Shown: positions 15,992 to 23,131 of the stretch, piece by piece
Layout: every line of letters begins with the position of its first letter
How positions within the stretch are numbered: position 1 is the first letter of the stretch
Assembly: GCA_946481345.1 (NCBI GenBank)
Contig: CAMLMY010000012.1
Location: 1 to 50,204, forward strand
Direction: 5' to 3'
Length of the DNA stretch: 50,204 nucleotides
Source of the DNA: an uncultured Gilliamella sp.
GTDB lineage: Bacteria > Pseudomonadota > Gammaproteobacteria > Enterobacterales > Orbaceae
Notes under the pieces: generated by a model
Told to the model about the DNA's origin: nothing
What the model saw: the letters and a program-made list of their open reading frames with translations, nothing else
Databases searched by the model: none
Translations under genes and position numbers: made by a program

Positions 15992-17425
15992 TCAATTATC
16001 AATAACACCCATTTGGATATGATATTTTTTCACTTTATATTGTAATGTCGTTCGTGAGATATTGAGTAATTTTGCTGCAGTAATAATTTTACCATTGGCT
16101 TGATTTAATGCATCAATGATAAGTTGCTTTTCATAATGTTCAACTTGTTCGATTAGATTATGATTACCCGTTAACTCGTTAATACTTGGTTTTTCTATCT
16201 TATTTTCAAGTTGATGTTGTGGATAAGGACTATGAATATCAAATAGTTCTTCATCGAGAATAATTTTTTGTAATTCACCAGGTTCATTTTGTAATACCAT
16301 ACTACGGACAATCGCATTTTCCAGCATTCGTACATTGCCTGGCCACGGTGCTGACATTAATTGCTGCAACGCATGTTCACTGATACCGGTGATCACTATA
16401 TTGACATCAGTTTTATGTTTATCGATAAAATATCGTGCCAATACAGGGATATCTTCTTGTCTTTCCCGTAAGGCTGGAAGTTTGATTAAACCAACATTTA
16501 ATCGATAAAATAAGTCACTGCGCATTTTACCGCTTTTTAACAATTCCGCTGGAGACTCATTCATCGCCGCTACAATTCGTACATCAGCATATTTCTCTTT
16601 ATTTCCACCTAAAGACCAATAGGTTTTTTCTTGCAAGAAGCGTAATAGTTTGCTTTGCATTTCAAGAGGCATAGCGTTGAGTTCATCAAGAAATAAGGTT
16701 CCGCCATTGGCCAGTTCGAGATAACCTTGACGATTTTCAGCACCGGTAAAGGCTCCTTTAACCGTCCCAAATAAAGTACTTTCAATCAATGTGGTTGGTA
16801 AAGCGCTACAGTTTAGTGAAATGAATGCTTTATCTCGGCGTTGACTGGTTTGATGAATTAAGCGAGCAAATAGCTCTTTCCCTGTACCAGTTTCACCAAC
16901 AATTAATACCGGAACATCATTACTACCTAAAATATTAGTTTGATCGATAACCTCTTGCATTTTTTTCGACGCAAAAACAATTTCCGGTAGCGGTTGTTCT
17001 TTATTGTGATATAACTTTCTATTAAGGCGAAAAACCTGATCTTGCAACTGCCGAACATTGGATATATTTCGACCTATTTCAACTGCGCCGATAATTTCTT
17101 TATTATGATTATAAAGCGGTACAGTTGTGTGTTGATAATCAACTAATTTACCCACATGATTATAGTAAGTTTGATAGGTATCTTGATATTCTTTACCTTG
17201 TAAAGCTTGTAGCATAGTACTATCTTCTTTTTTCAAATTAGGGTAAACTTTAAGCATTGGTTTACCGATGGCTTGCTCCATTGTATAGCCATCAAGTTCT
17301 GCGCTTTCCTGATTGTAGTAAATATATTTACCTTCTTTATCAATAATAGCCATTGGCTGATGTATTAAATCAAAAAAATGTTTAAATATTTCCAATGCTT
17401 GTAATAATTCAGGATCAATTATCAT
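15992..17425 (-). CDS. PAS-domain sigma-54-dependent transcriptional activator
   Basis: A bacterial enhancer-binding protein of 477 aa. Order: PAS sensor domain (about 12-125; PMAIIDKEGKYIYYNQESAE), AAA+ domain (about 148-375) with Walker A GETGTGKE (177-184), the sigma-54-contacting GAFTGA loop (224-229) and Walker [13 protein letters not shown], then a Fis-type helix-turn-helix at the C-terminus (AAKLLNISRTTLQYKVKKY). There is no receiver domain, so it probably responds to a small ligand through the PAS domain, as RocR-type activators do with ornithine. It is divergent from the decarboxylase/racemase operon, which starts at a perfect sigma-54 promoter. I infer that it controls that operon; it matches the position I recall for Salmonella STM2361. 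Confidence 0.88.
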   Translation of the reverse strand: MIIDPELLQALEIFKHFFDLIHQPMAIIDKEGKYIYYNQESAELDGYTMEQAIGKPMLKVYPNLKKEDSTMLQALQGKEYQDTYQTYYNHVGKLVDYQHTTVPLYNHNKEIIGAVEIGRNISNVRQLQDQVFRLNRKLYHNKEQPLPEIVFASKKMQEVIDQTNILGSNDVPVLIVGETGTGKELFARLIHQTSQRRDKAFISLNCSALPTTLIESTLFGTVKGAFTGAENRQGYLELANGGTLFLDELNAMPLEMQSKLLRFLQEKTYWSLGGNKEKYADVRIVAAMNESPAELLKSGKMRSDLFYRLNVGLIKLPALRERQEDIPVLARYFIDKHKTDVNIVITGISEHALQQLMSAPWPGNVRMLENAIVRSMVLQNEPGELQKIILDEELFDIHSPYPQHQLENKIEKPSINELTGNHNLIEQVEHYEKQLIIDALNQANGKIITAAKLLNISRTTLQYKVKKYHIQMGVIDN

Positions 17426-17509
17426 GATTCTAAAACCTTTTTAAAATTGGATTATTGCTAAGTATAGCTAGCGTTGATTTAAATATCTTTCAAGTATTAA
17501 TAAAAATAG

Positions 17510-17556
17510 TGACAAATTTTCGTCAGAAAACCATATTTCTTACTAAATGACTAGTA
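17510..17556. promoter_or_regulatory. Candidate upstream activator sites for the sigma-54 regulator
   Basis: Two short inverted repeats lie 50-100 bases upstream of the -24 element: TGAC-N8-GTCA at 17510-17525 and TACTA-N6-TAGTA at 17541-17556. Position fits enhancer sites of a Fis-HTH activator, but the two do not share a sequence, so at most one may be real. Confidence 0.35.
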
Positions 17557-17608
17557 TTTTATTTGTAATTATTTCGTTAAGATATTGATTATTTGTGTTT
17601 TTATAAGT

Positions 17609-17623
17609 TGGCACGTTGATTGC
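17609..17623 (+). promoter_or_regulatory. Sigma-54 (-24/-12) promoter of the amino-acid decarboxylase operon
   Basis: TGGCACG-TTGA-TTGC matches the sigma-54 consensus TGGCACG-N4-TTGC at every defined position, with GG at 17610-17611 and GC at 17622-17623 at the correct 12-base separation. It lies 60 bases upstream of the decarboxylase ATG and faces it, with a sigma-54 activator gene divergently adjacent. Confidence 0.92.
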
Positions 17624-17682
17624 ATTGTAAGTGAGTAATCTTTTTACTTACCTTTTTTATGTACTAATTAACTGGAGGTCAT

Positions 17683-19080
17683 ATGTCCGACACAATTATG
17701 TCAAATTATAACAAATTACGTACCGATCTAATAACAAAAGATCGTCGTTTTAGTGCGCAAAACGGCAAACTTTGTTTTGATGGTGTGAATTTGGAAGAAT
17801 TAGCAAAGAAATATCCAACACCTTTCTATGTATTTTCTGAAAAAGAAATCGATCGTAATATTCAGGAAATCAAAGATTCGTTTAAAGCTCATCCAAACAC
17901 AAAAATTTTCTATGCGTCAAAAACATGTTCAGTAATGGGGGTACTTAAAGCGATTAAAGATGCGGGTATCTATGCAGAAGCGAACTCAATGTTTGAAGTG
18001 CGTAAATGTTTAGAAATTGGTTTCCCTGGTAGCCAAATTGTTTTCAATGGTGTAGTTAAAAAACCGGTAGATTTAGAATTTGCTATTCAAAATGATCTTT
18101 ATATCATCAACGTTGATAGCTTATATGAATTAGATATCATCGATGAAATTTCTCGTCGTTTGAAAAAAATGGCTAATGTTTGTGTGCGTGTTGAGCCAAA
18201 TGTTCCATCTGCTACTCATGCAGAATTAGTTACTGCTTATCATGCTAAATCAGGTATTGATTTAGAACAAGCTGAAGAAACTTGTCGTCGTATTCTTGAA
18301 ATGCCTTATGTACATTTACGTGGTTTACATATGCACGTGGGTGACCAAGTGCCAGAAGCGGAACCATTTGCTAAAGCGACTAAAGTATTAGTTGATGAAT
18401 CACGCCGTTTAGAAGAAGTTTTAGGCATTAAATTTGATTTAATCAACGTCGGTGGTGGTATTCCTGTTCCTTATAAATATGATGATGAAAATGGTAACCC
18501 ATTACAAGACAACATGTATGCAGGTATTACAGCACAAGATTTCGCTGATGCGGTAATTAGTGAAGTACATAAATGGCGTAAAGACGTTGAAATCTGCATC
18601 GAACCAGGTCGTAAAGTTACCGGTTCAGCAGGTGTACTTTTAACTGAAGTTGCTTGTGAAAAACGTAAAACTAACTACGATTTAGATGGTAACATCGAAG
18701 AACATGTTGAATGGAAATTTGTTGACGCAGGTTATAGCGTATTATCTGATAGTCAACATTTTGATTGGTTCTTCTATGTATATGATGCATCAAAAATTAC
18801 TGAACAACATGATGAATACATTAAATTAGCTGGTCCATTATGTGATGGTGGTGACTATTTCCATGTTGGTGTTAAAGGTGAAGAATTCTTATTACCTAAA
18901 GACACTGAGATTGGCGATATCATTGCTTTCCTTGATGCTGGTGCTTATACCATCGAAAGCCAAACGGTTTATAACAATCGCCCACGTACGGCTGTTGTTA
19001 TGATTGATAAAGAAGGCAAAGACCGATTGATTCGCCGTGAAGATACTTACGAGGATATGGTTGGATACGACGTGTATTAA
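17683..19080 (+). CDS. Fold-type III PLP decarboxylase, probably D-ornithine/D-lysine decarboxylase type
   Basis: A 465-aa protein of the diaminopimelate/ornithine decarboxylase fold (alanine-racemase-like barrel plus beta domain). The PLP lysine is K80 in FYASKTC; HMHVGDQ (216-222) and GGGIPVPY (257-264) bind the cofactor, EPGR is at 307-310 and the partner-subunit cysteine motif is CDGGD (387-391) where LysA proteins have CESGD. True LysA is about 420 aa, so this is a longer, separate branch. The neighbours (racemase, two basic-amino-acid-type permeases, sigma-54 activator) match what I recall around Salmonella STM2360, a D-ornithine/D-lysine decarboxylase of the same length. Products would be putrescine or cadaverine. 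GGAGG ahead of the ATG supports the start. Substrate is inference. Confidence 0.82.
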
Positions 19081-19088
19081 TCATGAGC

Positions 19089-19115
19089 TATCTGGGGCAC
19101 TCAGTGCCCCAGATA
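19089..19115 (+). other. Intercistronic hairpin in the decarboxylase operon
   Basis: A perfect 12-bp G+C-rich stem (19089-19100 with 19104-19115) on a 3-base loop, nine bases after the decarboxylase stop and without a T-tract. It sits between two genes of one operon, so it probably stabilises or processes mRNA, or attenuates, raising decarboxylase over permease levels. Confidence 0.65.
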
Positions 19116-19135
19116 TTATAATGTGAGGTTATTTT

Positions 19136-20548
19136 ATGAGTGATTCTAAAGATTCAAGTTTACTTGGTATTAAAGACATTGTGTTTATGAATGTCATTGC
19201 GATTCTAAGTTTACGTCAAATTCCTAATGTTGCTCCTTATGGAGCGTCAGCAATGGTGCTTTGGCTACTTGCTGCATTTTGTCTGTTTTTCCCATTAGCT
19301 ATGGTTTGTGGCGAACTTTCTACTGGTTGGCCTAAAGATGGTGGGATATTTGTCTGGGTAAAAGAAGCGTTTGGTAAACGAATTGGCTGGATAGTAGTCG
19401 TTTGTTTCCTATTCTCATGCGTGCTTTTCTTCCCACTCATGTTGCAATTTGGTTTTACTGCAATTGGTTACATGTTTAGTCCTGAATTAGCACAAAATCA
19501 GGTGTTTATTGGTGTTGGCTCTATGGTGGTATTCTGGATCTTAACATTAATGAATATCAAAGGGATGAAATGGACTAAAATCATTAACAGTGTTAGTGCA
19601 TGGTTAGGGGTATTTATTCCTGCTGGTATTATCGTGTTATTAGCTATTGTATGGTTAATGACTGGTCATCCAATGGCAACTGATTATAGCCATGTTAGTG
19701 ATTGGATTCCGGATTTAAGTAGCTGGGACACTATTGTATTTTTATCAAGCATGATGTTCGCTTTTGCTGGACTTGAAGTTGCACCAATGATTGCAGGCCG
19801 TACTCGTGATCCACAACGAGACTTCCCTAAAGCAATGGCAGTATCTGCAATTGTTATTGTAGGTATCTATATGATCGGAACTTGGGCAATTAATACTTTA
19901 TTACCTGCTGCTGATACTGATATTGTTGCCGGTGTAATGCAAGCGATGGAAGCTGCCGCTGAAGAATTAAATATGCCTTGGTTATTACCTGTAATGGCAA
20001 TCTGTTTATTCTTTGGTGCATTAGGTCAAATTAACTCATGGTTAGTTGGTCCTATCTATATGTTACAAGAAGCATCAAAAGAAGATAACTTACTTGGTGA
20101 ACGTATTGGTCGTTTACATCCAGTATATCAAACACCAGCATTTGCTTTAGTTATCCAAGCGATAATTGTAACGGTACTTTGCTTCTCAACATTTGTATCG
20201 CCAAGTATTGCTGCTGCATATTGGATGTTAACCGCATTAACAACCATTTGTTATTTTATTCCTTACTTAGTAATGTTTATTGCCTATTATCGTTTACGTA
20301 TTACTCAACCTGATGTACCACGTAGCTTTAAGATCCCAGGTAAAGTATTACCAATTGTTTTACCAGGTTTAGGATTCTTATCTACATTATTTGCGGTGAT
20401 CTTAGTCTTTATTCCACCAGCACAAATTGATATGGGTGGATATGTTGAGTATATCGCTAAAATTGTTGGTGGTGCAGTGCTTGCAATTGTGTTAGCTGAA
20501 TGGATATACCATCGCGCACAAAAACGTAATCGCTTGCAACAACAATAA
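19136..20548 (+). CDS. APC superfamily amino acid permease (glutamate:GABA-antiporter-like type)
   Basis: A 470-aa inner-membrane transporter with about 12 hydrophobic segments. The first helix DIVFMNVIAILSLRQIPNVAPYG and the following LSTGWPKDGGIFVWVKEAFG are the pattern of the GadC/YjeM-like branch of the APC superfamily, many of whose members exchange an amino acid for its decarboxylation product. FAFAGLEVAPMIAGRTRDPQRDFPKAM is the conserved helix-6 region. A good GAGG site precedes the ATG. As second gene after the decarboxylase it most likely works as substrate/amine antiporter, which would make the pathway consume protons. Substrate is inferred from context only. Confidence 0.85.
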   Translation: MSDSKDSSLLGIKDIVFMNVIAILSLRQIPNVAPYGASAMVLWLLAAFCLFFPLAMVCGELSTGWPKDGGIFVWVKEAFGKRIGWIVVVCFLFSCVLFFPLMLQFGFTAIGYMFSPELAQNQVFIGVGSMVVFWILTLMNIKGMKWTKIINSVSAWLGVFIPAGIIVLLAIVWLMTGHPMATDYSHVSDWIPDLSSWDTIVFLSSMMFAFAGLEVAPMIAGRTRDPQRDFPKAMAVSAIVIVGIYMIGTWAINTLLPAADTDIVAGVMQAMEAAAEELNMPWLLPVMAICLFFGALGQINSWLVGPIYMLQEASKEDNLLGERIGRLHPVYQTPAFALVIQAIIVTVLCFSTFVSPSIAAAYWMLTALTTICYFIPYLVMFIAYYRLRITQPDVPRSFKIPGKVLPIVLPGLGFLSTLFAVILVFIPPAQIDMGGYVEYIAKIVGGAVLAIVLAEWIYHRAQKRNRLQQQ

Positions 20549-20566
20549 GATATAGAGGAGTAATTT

Positions 20567-21673
20567 ATGTACAAACCTATATTAGAAATTGATTTAGGTA
20601 AATTAAAAGACAATGCTCGTGTTGAAAAAGAGCTATTAGCTAAACACGGCATTGAAGTTATGGCTGTAAATAAAGTTTTTGATGGTTGCGTTGAAACTGC
20701 CAAAGCAGTGCTTGATGGTGGTATTGATGTTATTGCTGAATCAAGAACCTACAATTTGAAGAAACTTAAAGATACATTAAATTGTAAAACTTGCCTATTA
20801 CGCAGCCCTTGTTTAAGTGAAATCAGTGAAGTTGTTAAGTATGCTGATATCAGTTTAAATAGTGAAAAACAAGTTATTCAAGCACTTTCTGATGAAGCGG
20901 TAAAACAGCAAAAAGTCCATCAAGTTTTATTAATGGTGGATATGGGGGATTTACGCGAAGGGATTTGGTTTGAACATGTAGACGATATTATTGAAACGGT
21001 CAAACTGATCCTTTCTTTACCCGGTGTTGAGCTTTATGGGCTTGGTACTAACTTTAACTGCTATGGAACTGTGCTACCGACAGTGAAAAATGGCGTAGAT
21101 TTTTTACACATAGCACGCAAAGTTGAAGAAGCTTGTAATATCAAGATCAAATATCTATCTGCTGGTAACTGTACTAGTTACCATCTGCTTGATAAAGGGA
21201 TCTGGCCAGAAGGACTAAATCACATCCGTATTGGTGGTTTACATGAGTTTGGTATTGAGTATGTCGATATGAAATATCTTGATGAGTTTCATCACTCAAA
21301 CAAACCGGTCGAGAAAGCTTGTAGTGACATGTATAAATTATATGCACAAGTTATCGAACTTAATAGTAAACCTACCGTGCCTGTTGGTGAATTAGGTGTT
21401 GATGCCTTTTTGAACAGCAAAACTTTTGTTGATCACGGTACTCGTAAACGAGCTTTGCTTGCTTTTGGTCGTCAAGATGTGCCGGCGGAAAACTGTGTAC
21501 CGGTAAATGATAACATTACGGTATTAGGTCAAACGAGTGATCATACTATCGTTGATATTGAAGATGTTTCTGAAACATTGCGAGTTGGCGATATGATCGT
21601 TTTTGAGCTTGATTACACAGCTCTGCTTATGGCTTGCCAAACCAACGGCGTAGAAAAACGATTTGTTTATTAA
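20567..21673 (+). CDS. Alanine-racemase-fold amino acid racemase, ornithine/lysine racemase-like
   Basis: A 368-aa PLP enzyme with an N-terminal alanine-racemase barrel. The PLP lysine is K36 in VMAVNKVFDG. The stretches VDMGDLREGIW, VPVGELGVDAFLNSK and RKRALLAFGRQD closely resemble what I recall of the clostridial ornithine racemase Orr, and differ from Alr/DadX. RBS GAGGAG lies 10 bases ahead of the ATG, 18 bases after the permease. It would interconvert L- and D-ornithine (or lysine), so that the operon's decarboxylase can reach whichever form is taken up. YhfX-type racemases are the alternative assignment. Family confidence is high, substrate moderate. Confidence 0.85.
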   Translation: MYKPILEIDLGKLKDNARVEKELLAKHGIEVMAVNKVFDGCVETAKAVLDGGIDVIAESRTYNLKKLKDTLNCKTCLLRSPCLSEISEVVKYADISLNSEKQVIQALSDEAVKQQKVHQVLLMVDMGDLREGIWFEHVDDIIETVKLILSLPGVELYGLGTNFNCYGTVLPTVKNGVDFLHIARKVEEACNIKIKYLSAGNCTSYHLLDKGIWPEGLNHIRIGGLHEFGIEYVDMKYLDEFHHSNKPVEKACSDMYKLYAQVIELNSKPTVPVGELGVDAFLNSKTFVDHGTRKRALLAFGRQDVPAENCVPVNDNITVLGQTSDHTIVDIEDVSETLRVGDMIVFELDYTALLMACQTNGVEKRFVY

Positions 21674-21682
21674 TATATAACT

Positions 21683-21702
21683 GCTGCTGGGCAACCAGCA
21701 GC
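21683..21702 (+). other. Second intercistronic hairpin in the decarboxylase operon
   Basis: A perfect 8-bp G+C-rich stem (21683-21690 with 21695-21702) closed by a GCAA tetraloop of the GNRA type, nine bases after the racemase stop and without a T-tract. Position relative to the stop is the same as for the hairpin after the decarboxylase. Confidence 0.6.
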
Positions 21703-21727
21703 TATTATTGATTACTAGGCGGTTTAC

Positions 21728-23131
21728 ATGGCAACATCAGAACCTCAAGAAAGTCCTTATCCCAGTACTTTAAAGAAAAACTTAAAGAATCGTCATTTAT
21801 TGATGATTTCATTAGGTGGTTCAATTGGTACAGGATTATTTATTGGTATTGCAGCGCCACTTAGCACTGTTGGACCTTTAGGGACCATTATCGCTTATCT
21901 ACTTGCCGGCAGTATTATGCTGTCTACCATGCTTTGCTTAGGTGAACTTTCTTGCGCATTCCCTCATGCAGGGTCTTTCCAGCATTATGCATTAATGTTT
22001 ATTCCACATCCTATTTGGAGTTATACTATTGGCTGGTTATATTGGTTAAGTTGGGTACTATCTATGGCTGCTGACTTAACAGCGGCGTCTATGATTGCTC
22101 ATCAAGTTTTTTCCTCTATTCCTATCTACATTCTTAGTCTAATTATTCTAACCGTTATCACTTGTGTTCATTTAACCTCTGTTCGAGCTTTTGGTGAAAG
22201 TGAATATTGGTTTTCAACAATCAAGGTATTAGCCATTATTACGTTTATAGCAGTTGGTATATATCTACTTTATCAACAATATAATCAAACACATGTGTTA
22301 CCAACTTTTAAGACAGAGCAGGGCTGGTTTCCTAATGGATTTTTATCAATCTTTGTTTGTATGACTATTGTGACTTATTCATTTCAGGGGGTTGAATTAA
22401 TTGGTAGTGCCGCAGGTGAAGCGCAATCACCCCAAACTGTTTTGCCTAAAATTATCACCGGTGTGGCGTTTCGGATAATTTTGTTTTATGTGTTAGCAAT
22501 AGCCGTGTTAGCACTGGTATATCCCTATGGTACAACACATGATGAAATTAGCCCATTTGTTTGGGTATTCAATAAAGCGGGGATAACCTTTGCATCGTAT
22601 GCAATGCTGTTCGTTATATTTTGTGCTGCGATTTCGGCTGCTAATTCGGCAGTTTATGCTAGTTCTAGAATGTTATGGTCGATGGCTCAGGATAATTTAG
22701 CACCAAAATATTTCTCAGAAGTGAATAAACGTGGCGTGCCAACCAAAGGAATATTGTTTATTGCTATTATTGCTTTAGTTTCGCTATTTTCTAAGTATAT
22801 CGCAGCTGAAAAATTATACCTCTATTTAGTAGCAAGTACTGGGCAAGTTGGTTGTTTTGCTTGGATTATTATTGCTTGGTGTCAGTATCAATTTCGGAAA
22901 GGAGTAAATGAAGGTAAATATAGTAAAGATATGATTAAATTTAAATCCCCACTATTTCCTTGGTTAGCGATAATATCTATTACCGTTAACATTGTTATTA
23001 TTGTTGGGGTCTGGTTTGGTGAATCAGGACATTTTATTTTATTATCTGAGGTAATCTTAATTTTTGTTATCTTGAGTACATACTACTTTTTTAAAAAACG
23101 AAAAGTTAAGTTGGATAACCAAATAGATTAA
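21728..23131 (+). CDS. Amino acid permease of the AAT (LysP/AroP-like) family
   Basis: A 467-aa, 12-segment transporter. Its N-terminal KNLKNRHLLMISLGGSIGTG followed by LFIG is the hallmark of the AAT family (LysP, AroP, PheP), and helix 6 carries FQGVELIGSAAGEAQSPQTV with the usual glutamate. It therefore belongs to a different branch from the operon's first permease and probably performs proton-driven uptake of the amino acid, with the other doing exchange. The ATG has a poor ribosome site (AGGCGG) and follows a hairpin, so expression may be lower. It is the last gene of the operon; a hairpin follows. Confidence 0.87.
   Translation: MATSEPQESPYPSTLKKNLKNRHLLMISLGGSIGTGLFIGIAAPLSTVGPLGTIIAYLLAGSIMLSTMLCLGELSCAFPHAGSFQHYALMFIPHPIWSYTIGWLYWLSWVLSMAADLTAASMIAHQVFSSIPIYILSLIILTVITCVHLTSVRAFGESEYWFSTIKVLAIITFIAVGIYLLYQQYNQTHVLPTFKTEQGWFPNGFLSIFVCMTIVTYSFQGVELIGSAAGEAQSPQTVLPKIITGVAFRIILFYVLAIAVLALVYPYGTTHDEISPFVWVFNKAGITFASYAMLFVIFCAAISAANSAVYASSRMLWSMAQDNLAPKYFSEVNKRGVPTKGILFIAIIALVSLFSKYIAAEKLYLYLVASTGQVGCFAWIIIAWCQYQFRKGVNEGKYSKDMIKFKSPLFPWLAIISITVNIVIIVGVWFGESGHFILLSEVILIFVILSTYYFFKKRKVKLDNQID

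Follow-up and report, generated by a model that had tools for sequence, protein, structure and literature searches.

We wanted to establish which metabolic route is encoded by a cluster of five genes in a 50,204-nucleotide stretch of DNA from an uncultured Gilliamella sp. (contig CAMLMY010000012.1, hereafter the window), and how the bacterium may benefit from it. The first-pass annotation, made from the sequence alone, had described a divergent activator and four further genes, and had read them as a sigma-54-controlled system for racemisation and decarboxylation of a basic amino acid, matching Salmonella STM2357-2361. We consider it very probable that the cluster is the Gilliamella counterpart of the Salmonella DokD operon STM2361-2357, with a racemase-DokD enzymatic route controlled by a sigma-54 activator. 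The open reading frames lie exactly where they had been placed, the activator gene being divergent from the dokD, antiporter, racemase and permease genes:

15992-17425, minus strand: PAS/AAA+ sigma-54 activator (bEBP) with Fis-type HTH, STM2361-type, 477 aa (Pfam PAS_4, Sigma54_activat, HTH_8)
17510-17525, no strand assigned: candidate enhancer (UAS) palindrome TGACAAATTTTCGTCA for the activator, at a conserved position
17609-17624, plus strand: sigma-54 -24/-12 promoter TGGCACGTTGATTGCA, zero-mismatch match
17683-19080, plus strand: dokD, predicted D-ornithine/D-lysine decarboxylase, fold III PLP enzyme, 465 aa (Orn_Arg_deC_N and Orn_DAP_Arg_deC)
19136-20548, plus strand: APC-family antiporter, GadC-like, putative amino acid/diamine exchanger, 470 aa (AA_permease_2)
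20567-21673, plus strand: Orr-type PLP amino acid racemase, probably for ornithine and/or lysine, 368 aa (Ala_racemase_N)
21683-21702, plus strand: terminator/attenuator-like hairpin between the racemase and permease genes, from the terminator scan
21728-23131, plus strand: APC-family permease, LysP-like, putative basic amino acid uptake, 467 aa (AA_permease, 348 bits)

A neighbourhood search had been proposed as a check of this reading. For this search 35 loci were fetched, of which 33 span dokD; partial loci L034 and L035 were set aside and L029 is in pieces. The identical five genes stood in identical order in 31 of the 33 loci, also in other Enterobacterales (Salmonella, Citrobacter, Kluyvera, Yokenella, Mixta and Edwardsiella). 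Because this order recurs so widely, the arrangement is not due to chance. The two exceptions were L019, with no match to the activator, and L031, where the activator gene is found at the distal end of the cluster.

Further, we examined the identity of the decarboxylase. It scored 891.9 bits on the NCBIfam equivalog model NF052544 (cut-off 700). The structure of the Salmonella enzyme (6n2h) aligned to residues 1-465 of Gilliamella DokD with zero gaps, and the Gilliamella protein carries K80, C387, Y430 and D388. According to the accessible part of PMC13294871, the C387A variant is approximately 1% active. Gilliamella and S. enterica diarizonae DokD are identical at 388 of 465 positions. Between Gilliamella and the two Salmonella loci (S. 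enterica diarizonae and arizonae, L026 and L028), identity was 75% for the racemase, 82% for the antiporter, 58-60% for the permease and 55-57% for the activator; gene order, divergent activator and sigma-54 layout are alike. The claimed match to Salmonella is borne out by the equivalog score, the gap-free alignment and the shared gene order. The system is less under-described than had been held, as this operon type is already known from Salmonella, where the enzyme has been characterised and crystallised.

The racemase was assessed in a similar way. Its best family by far, over its full length, was Orr (NF040742), the ornithine racemase of clostridial origin, but the score of 365.8 bits is under the cut-off of 480; the Alr model gave only 29 bits. 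Three DokD-linked racemases of other genera scored 354-361 bits, likewise below 480, and the Salmonella diarizonae homologue scored 353.5. Lysine 36 was invariant in 12 aligned sequences. The predicted structure has an alanine-racemase fold (medium confidence, pLDDT 69.5) and matched, without distinction, VanT, BsrV, alanine racemases, lysine racemases and D-threonine aldolase, so the substrate is not readable from the fold. When the sequence was compared with PDB chains, no match was obtained at E 0.001. STM2358 was reportedly found by Phillips in 2017 to have ornithine racemase activity. We observed no sequence sign of an alanine-only racemase, an outcome that had been named as contrary to the first reading, and the protein is probably an Orr-type racemase of ornithine and/or lysine.

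The antiporter remained under the cut-offs of the NCBIfam GadC models (323 vs 650, 299 vs 640 and 193 vs 673.5 bits); its best PDB match was 4dji, GadC, followed by AdiC. For the permease the best PDB match was 9eyd, a lysine-specific permease (E 4e-75). Since both proteins are below every curated cut-off shown, their substrates and transport directions are guesses.

We then analyzed the control of the operon. The promoter TGGCACGTTGATTGCA is the sole zero-mismatch sigma-54 match in the window; 50 more matches carry one or two mismatches, with 27 expected by chance overall. The -24/-12 elements were recognisable in 32 of the 33 loci scanned, and rpoN was found in the genome. The activator is 55-59% identical to homologues beside dokD in L020 and L022-L029. 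Its best NCBIfam model was NF041552 (367.3 bits vs cut-off 795), and identity as PrdR was rejected. In the portion of PMC3844500 available to us, the Salmonella operon is listed among sigma-54-dependent operons as STM2360-56, ubiX included, with the promoter TGGCATGCCTTTTGCTTT and the value 100, which we read as a fold change, in an array driven by the promiscuous activator DctD250. The predicted sigma-54 control is thus supported by the promoter, the divergent bEBP gene, rpoN and the Salmonella array data.

Upstream of the -24 element, at a spacing of 80-83 bp, a TGACGAATTTTCGTCA-like site is conserved. TGACAAATTTTCGTCA at 17510-17525 is the only zero-mismatch place in the window, where three matches with up to two mismatches are no more than expected by chance. 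The consensus was derived from the very sequences in which it was then counted (n = 34, of which 24 are from Gilliamella and not mutually independent), and only the fixed spacing and position are independent of it. In L017, L019, L021 and L031 some other place in the locus matched at least as well as this site. In one Gilliamella, strain Choc4-2 (L019), the activator, the palindrome site and the promoter were all lost together, and the enzyme genes were still open. The accessible text of PMC4987338 listed both site and signal of the STM2361-type activator as not known in 2016. The palindrome offers a concrete candidate binding site for this uncharacterised activator.

On this basis the following route may be proposed. 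The LysP-like permease would import L- (or D-) ornithine or lysine, and the Orr-type racemase would interconvert the L and D forms. From the D-form DokD, a relative of LysA acting on a D-configured carbon, would split off CO2, using up a proton and leaving putrescine or cadaverine, and the GadC-like antiporter would swap the product for fresh substrate. The operon would be turned on by the PAS-type activator bound at the palindrome, some 83 bp ahead of the -24 element. The D-substrate, the racemase substrate and the transport directions are assigned here by homology. Inducible decarboxylase-antiporter systems are represented by CadBA, SpeF-PotE and AdiAC. The DokD operon shares with them the working principle of a decarboxylase and an exchanger, but it differs in the decarboxylase fold, the D-substrate predicted from homology, the extra racemase and the sigma-54 control, and its antiporter is GadC-like and not PotE/CadB-like.

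We found dokD in 32 of 35 genomes of the genus Gilliamella and in none of nine other genomes of the family. In Gilliamella it occupied one chromosomal site, between yhiN and marC, and it was rare in wider samples; therefore the operon was probably acquired. Searching 20,395 E. coli records with blastn gave no dokD match. Spread by plasmids was rejected, as only 3 of 72,556 plasmid records matched dokD at E 1e-60, all of them non-mobilizable Salmonella plasmids of approximately 500 kb. Base composition was not foreign either (G+C 35.8% in the cluster vs 36.3% in the rest). These results extend a little-studied pathway of D-amino-acid decarboxylation from scattered enterobacteria to a core bee symbiont, nearly genus-wide in the genomes searched.

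No CadA/SpeC/SpeF/AdiA-type (OKR-family) or SpeA decarboxylase exceeded its cut-off in any of the 35 Gilliamella genomes. Therefore the DokD operon may be the only route of basic-amino-acid decarboxylation in the genus; this, the yhiN-marC site and the near genus-wide presence set it apart from the Salmonella operon. We suggest, tentatively and with less than even confidence, that Gilliamella lacks an ordinary L-lysine, L-ornithine or L-arginine decarboxylase and makes and exports diamines solely through a horizontally acquired pathway that racemises first. If so, a D-amino-acid intermediate would be an ordinary metabolic branch point for the core community of the bee gut. Microbial sources of cadaverine are of interest because, in the available part of PMC13214017, bee-gut cadaverine was positively associated with learning success. 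The dropout experiment described there did not point to Gilliamella, as cadaverine was significantly lower only without Bombilactobacillus. The part of PMC13299595 at hand also ascribes bee cadaverine to other bacteria.

We infer that the most likely benefit is a breakdown of basic amino acids that consumes protons and is coupled to exchange, serving pH and energy homeostasis, and not polyamine supply. Two other benefits, both compatible with the enzymatic route, were weighed. Putrescine biosynthesis in place of SpeC/SpeA would suit the lack of another putrescine route by the OKR-family and SpeA models, and a spermidine-synthase-like gene lies 4-5 kb from dokD in 8 of the 35 genomes. We hold it unlikely, since an antiporter-like gene of its own and regulation by sigma-54 seem to fit catabolism better, neither dokD nor the racemase gene was seen in 2 of the 35 genomes (G004, G011), the spermidine-synthase match in the window's own genome is marginal (23.3 bits vs cut-off 22.9), and PMC7857480, in its accessible part, regards a role of D-ODC in polyamine metabolism as unlikely. 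It is equally improbable that the operon scavenges free D-lysine and D-ornithine that other bacteria of the gut release, with conversion of D to L by the racemase feeding biosynthesis and DokD removing the excess. In favour are the uptake-type permease and the racemase, whose reaction is naturally reversible; against it, DokD breaks down the D-form, a waste if assimilation were the purpose, and no specificity for D-amino-acid uptake was seen (D-serine/D-alanine/glycine transporter model, 261 bits vs cut-off 732).

LysA is, like DokD, a fold III PLP decarboxylase acting at a D-configured centre. DokD scored marginally, by 4.6 bits, over the cut-off of the LysA model TIGR01048 (302.5 vs 297.9), but we consider a second diaminopimelate decarboxylase, paralogous to LysA, extremely improbable and rejected it on the far higher DokD equivalog score, a separate lysA gene elsewhere in the genome (521 bits vs cut-off 298) and the specificity residue. 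DokD and this LysA are 29-32% identical. From the active-site Cys onward LysA reads CESSD and DokD CDGGD, with Asp388 in place of the DAP-type Glu that comes after the Cys, and the Arg of the LysA motif RPALYD is replaced by Asp356. In Thermotoga LysA this Glu (E315) strongly shapes the substrate range, and ornithine/arginine decarboxylases carry Asp there, as far as the accessible part of PMC8277567 describes. A LysA-type enzyme acting only on meso-DAP, the other contrary outcome named beforehand, likewise left no sign in the sequence. The DokD tree (32 DokD rows; L001, L029, L034 and L035 left out beforehand) was midpoint-rooted without a LysA row and is silent on nesting of DokD inside LysA. 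The points against a DokD operon are the racemase and transporter scores under their cut-offs, the missing PDB match of the racemase, the dropout cadaverine and the DokD score marginally over the LysA cut-off.

Some minor observations were also made. The spermidine-synthase-like gene near dokD was read in L078, whose gltB-yhiN interval has two frames; the longest stop-free stretch of this interval in L079 is 445 codons. No link to the operon was shown. A sigma-70 promoter scan gave 40 sites (46.8 in shuffles), and a repeat search of the intergenic region gave seven inverted pairs, none of which was taken up. The terminator scan gave seven sites in 11 kb, with 7.1 expected in shuffles, so that neither it nor the sigma-70 scan is informative; the hairpin at 21683-21702 is one of the seven. 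Predicted hairpins of unlike sequence stand at the equivalent position between racemase and permease genes in other lineages.

We observed five open frames of 368-477 codons at the coordinates below, and family scans gave the following identities:

15992-17425, minus strand: sigma-54 activator (PAS/AAA+/Fis-HTH)
17683-19080, plus strand: dokD, decarboxylase (fold III PLP)
19136-20548, plus strand: first transporter (APC antiporter-like protein)
20567-21673, plus strand: racemase (alanine-racemase-like protein)
21728-23131, plus strand: second transporter (APC permease)

The window is part of a 75% complete genome (G000, contig C12), and the closest named relatives of the locus were Gilliamella apis and other Gilliamella. 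We judged the overall reading, a cluster for racemisation and decarboxylation of a basic amino acid, to be real and correctly made. The neighbourhood comparison that the annotation had proposed agreed with it: dokD was spanned in 33 of 35 fetched loci, 23 from Gilliamella and 10 from elsewhere, and the same five-gene order occurred in 31 of the 33. The operon belongs to a known kind, that of Salmonella STM2361-2357, and Gilliamella is a further member.

The decarboxylase is DokD. It carries C387 and Y430, and K80 lies within a YASKTC motif and, going by its position, would be the PLP lysine. A separate, proper lysA was found elsewhere in the genome; its product scored 520.8 bits on the LysA model and was 32% identical to DokD. 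The Arg of the LysA motif RPALYD, which we take to be the residue holding the distal carboxylate of DAP, is replaced by Asp356 in DokD. Gilliamella DokD (17683-19080 in the window) itself scored 302.5 bits on the LysA model, slightly over the cut-off of 297.9, and annotation pipelines may therefore call it lysA. At the specificity position DokD has Asp388 (CDGGD), whereas the LysA of the same genome has Glu (CESSD). CDGGD was conserved in all 31 loci examined, 30 times in the same column and once off by a residue. By our own alignment, Asp388 corresponds to E315 of Thermotoga LysA. According to excerpts of PMC8277567, E315 is the specificity position of that enzyme, ornithine and arginine decarboxylases have Asp at the equivalent position, and the wild-type, Glu-bearing Thermotoga LysA has weak activity on D-ornithine. 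Replacement of C387 by alanine in the Salmonella enzyme left about 1% of activity, as stated in part of PMC13294871, where a 2022 stereospecificity paper naming Y430 in its title is also cited.

LysA-type decarboxylases act on a D-centre, according to the same excerpts of PMC8277567. Since DokD is of the LysA type, the racemase would be required before it whenever L-lysine or L-ornithine is supplied, and this requirement would explain why racemase and DokD are found together. The operon would serve proton-consuming catabolism and not polyamine supply, as the antiporter-like gene and the sigma-54 control suggest. Part of PMC7857480 likewise considers a role of D-ODC in polyamine metabolism improbable.

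The best model for the racemase was Orr, with 365.8 bits against a cut-off of 480, while the Alr model gave 29.4 bits. Homologues from S. enterica diarizonae (353.5), Edwardsiella (355.0) and Photobacterium (360.5) scored similarly on Orr, so the shortfall is common to the DokD-linked racemases tested. Ornithine racemase activity was reportedly found for STM2358 by Phillips and co-workers (2017). A sequence search of PDB chains at E 0.001 returned no match to the racemase, and its AlphaFold model (pLDDT 69.5) had the alanine-racemase fold, a prediction from which the substrate is not readable. GadC was nearest to the first transporter and AdiC next, while LysP, a lysine-specific permease, was nearest to the second by solved structure. 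Because both proteins scored well under every curated cut-off shown, we regard exchange by the first and uptake by the second as putative.

The sigma-54 control claimed earlier was supported: TGGCACGTTGATTGCA at 17609-17624 was the sole zero-mismatch -24/-12 match in the window, and the genome encodes rpoN. Fifty further matches had one or two mismatches, with 27 expected in all; therefore only the perfect match was informative. Excerpts of PMC3844500 give Salmonella STM2360-56 a value of 100, which we read as fold change, in a sigma-54-dependent transcript array driven by the promiscuous DctD250, and name STM2361 as the predicted activator. Both the site and the signal of STM2361 are given as not known in part of a 2016 review (PMC4987338).

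Alignment of 12 upstream regions revealed a conserved palindrome, TGACAAATTTTCGTCA at 17510-17525 in the window. We surveyed 34 sequences (the window and loci L001-L033), 24 of them Gilliamella. In 32 of the 34, a recognisable -24/-12 was preceded, at a distance of 80-83 bp, by a site that shares 12-16 of 16 bases with TGACGAATTTTCGTCA. The exceptions were L019, where the decayed promoter and palindrome occupy the same place, and L031 of Photobacterium, with a weak site at 106 bp. Spacing between promoter and start codon was more variable (44-70 bp). In two Edwardsiella both arms were altered together, to CGCCGAATTTTCGGCG. A degenerate form matched in 26 of 33 loci, always at the upstream site alone. 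Several points weigh against the site. The consensus was derived from the same sequences in which matches were counted. With up to two mismatches allowed, there were 3 matches in the window and 2.04 expected. Arm pairing was weak (4-5 of 8 pairs) in L016, L017, L019, L021, L029 and L031, and in L017, L019, L021 and L031 the site did not exceed the best match found in the rest of the locus. We propose the palindrome as a candidate enhancer of STM2361-type activators, which gives an uncharacterised activator a testable candidate binding site.

Gilliamella Choc4-2 (L019, whose DNA is identical to that of G008 in L080) is a natural variant. Its activator was reduced to a 64-residue remnant match:

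L019:7370-8001 / L080:8580-9200: activator remnant, Gilliamella Choc4-2

Its palindrome had decayed and the GG of the -24 element was lost (TGATCTATCAATTGCA). The dokD, antiporter, racemase and permease genes were free of internal stops across the matched stretches and were 93%, 94%, 89% and 86% identical, respectively, to those of the window. The joint loss of activator, palindrome and promoter supports these three elements forming one functional unit, and suggests that another promoter acts in this strain.

A terminator-like hairpin lies between the racemase and permease genes (21683-21702), such sites being no commoner than in shuffles. We saw an inverted repeat in this gap by eye in all 16 sequences viewed, unlike in sequence between lineages, and a hairpin formed in all nine of these gaps that were folded. 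It may trim permease expression relative to the other genes.

We found dokD in 32 of 35 Gilliamella genomes (as two pieces in G024) and not in G004, G011 or G031 (59% complete). G031 has the racemase gene, which brings the racemase count to 33 of 35. Neither gene was found in nine genomes of other genera of Orbaceae, and the dokD survey had one positive (G121) among its other 154 genomes from the order. When 394 genomes were drawn more widely from the order, 28 had dokD, 26 of them Gilliamella; of 398 drawn from the phylum, two had it, the window's own and G121.

The operon was preceded by gltB and yhiN and followed by marC in all 23 Gilliamella loci; rplS and trmD were also present in 22, as L015 ends first. 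None of these five genes matched in the DNA taken around the 10 non-Gilliamella loci. In genus g3 of the family, rplS adjoins yhiN with a gap of approximately 80-150 bp in four of four loci (L056, L057, L059, L062), which looks like an empty site. It was less plain in the other genera: in G037 5.7 kb separate the two genes, and rplS was not found in 16-18 kb of G035 and G041. In G011 other open frames fill the yhiN-marC interval, and rplS was not found in 19 kb; in 17 kb of G004 we found neither marC nor rplS. The interval in G011 (L066:8726-12364) holds two similar open-frame sets of unknown function. In a midpoint-rooted tree of 32 DokD rows (L001, L029, L034 and L035 omitted), the 23 Gilliamella rows formed one group apart from eight enterobacterial rows (support 96/88, 98/95). 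The base composition of the operon was not foreign. The simplest reading is that dokD was gained once, on the branch leading to most Gilliamella, and that G004 and G011 either diverged earlier or lost the gene.

PF01276, which we take to be the family of CadA, SpeC, SpeF and AdiA, was over cut-off in none of 35 Gilliamella genomes, three of nine other Orbaceae and three of 14 controls; sub-threshold matches (<21 bits) occurred in 10 of the 35. SpeA (TIGR01273) was over cut-off in none of the 35 and in five of 14 controls. Its weak matches, apart from one G012 fragment, fell at DokD places or at frames of 416-439 codons, which are LysA places where listed in the genome survey. As these two models returned no other basic-amino-acid decarboxylase, DokD may be the only route in the genus from basic amino acids to diamines. 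We found no report of a DokD operon in Gilliamella in the open-licence literature searched. The operon is of moderate interest for its near-complete presence across a core symbiont of bees whose genomes yielded no second decarboxylase of this sort, and for the candidate activator site.

A PF01564 match lay 4-5 kb from dokD, by position, in eight of 35 Gilliamella genomes and not in the window. Between gltB and yhiN, L078:4520-6674 holds a spermidine-synthase-like gene with a hydrophobic N-terminus and a second hydrophobic frame. In Kluyvera YDC799 (L029:8001-13445) dokD, antiporter, racemase and permease each matched in at least two pieces, a pattern that resembles sequencing errors or decay along the whole operon. 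Three Salmonella plasmid records, non-mobilizable and each of approximately 500 kb (CP148755.1, NZ_CP148876.1, CP148763.1), carry dokD, labelled alanine racemase in two, and may be misfiled chromosome pieces.
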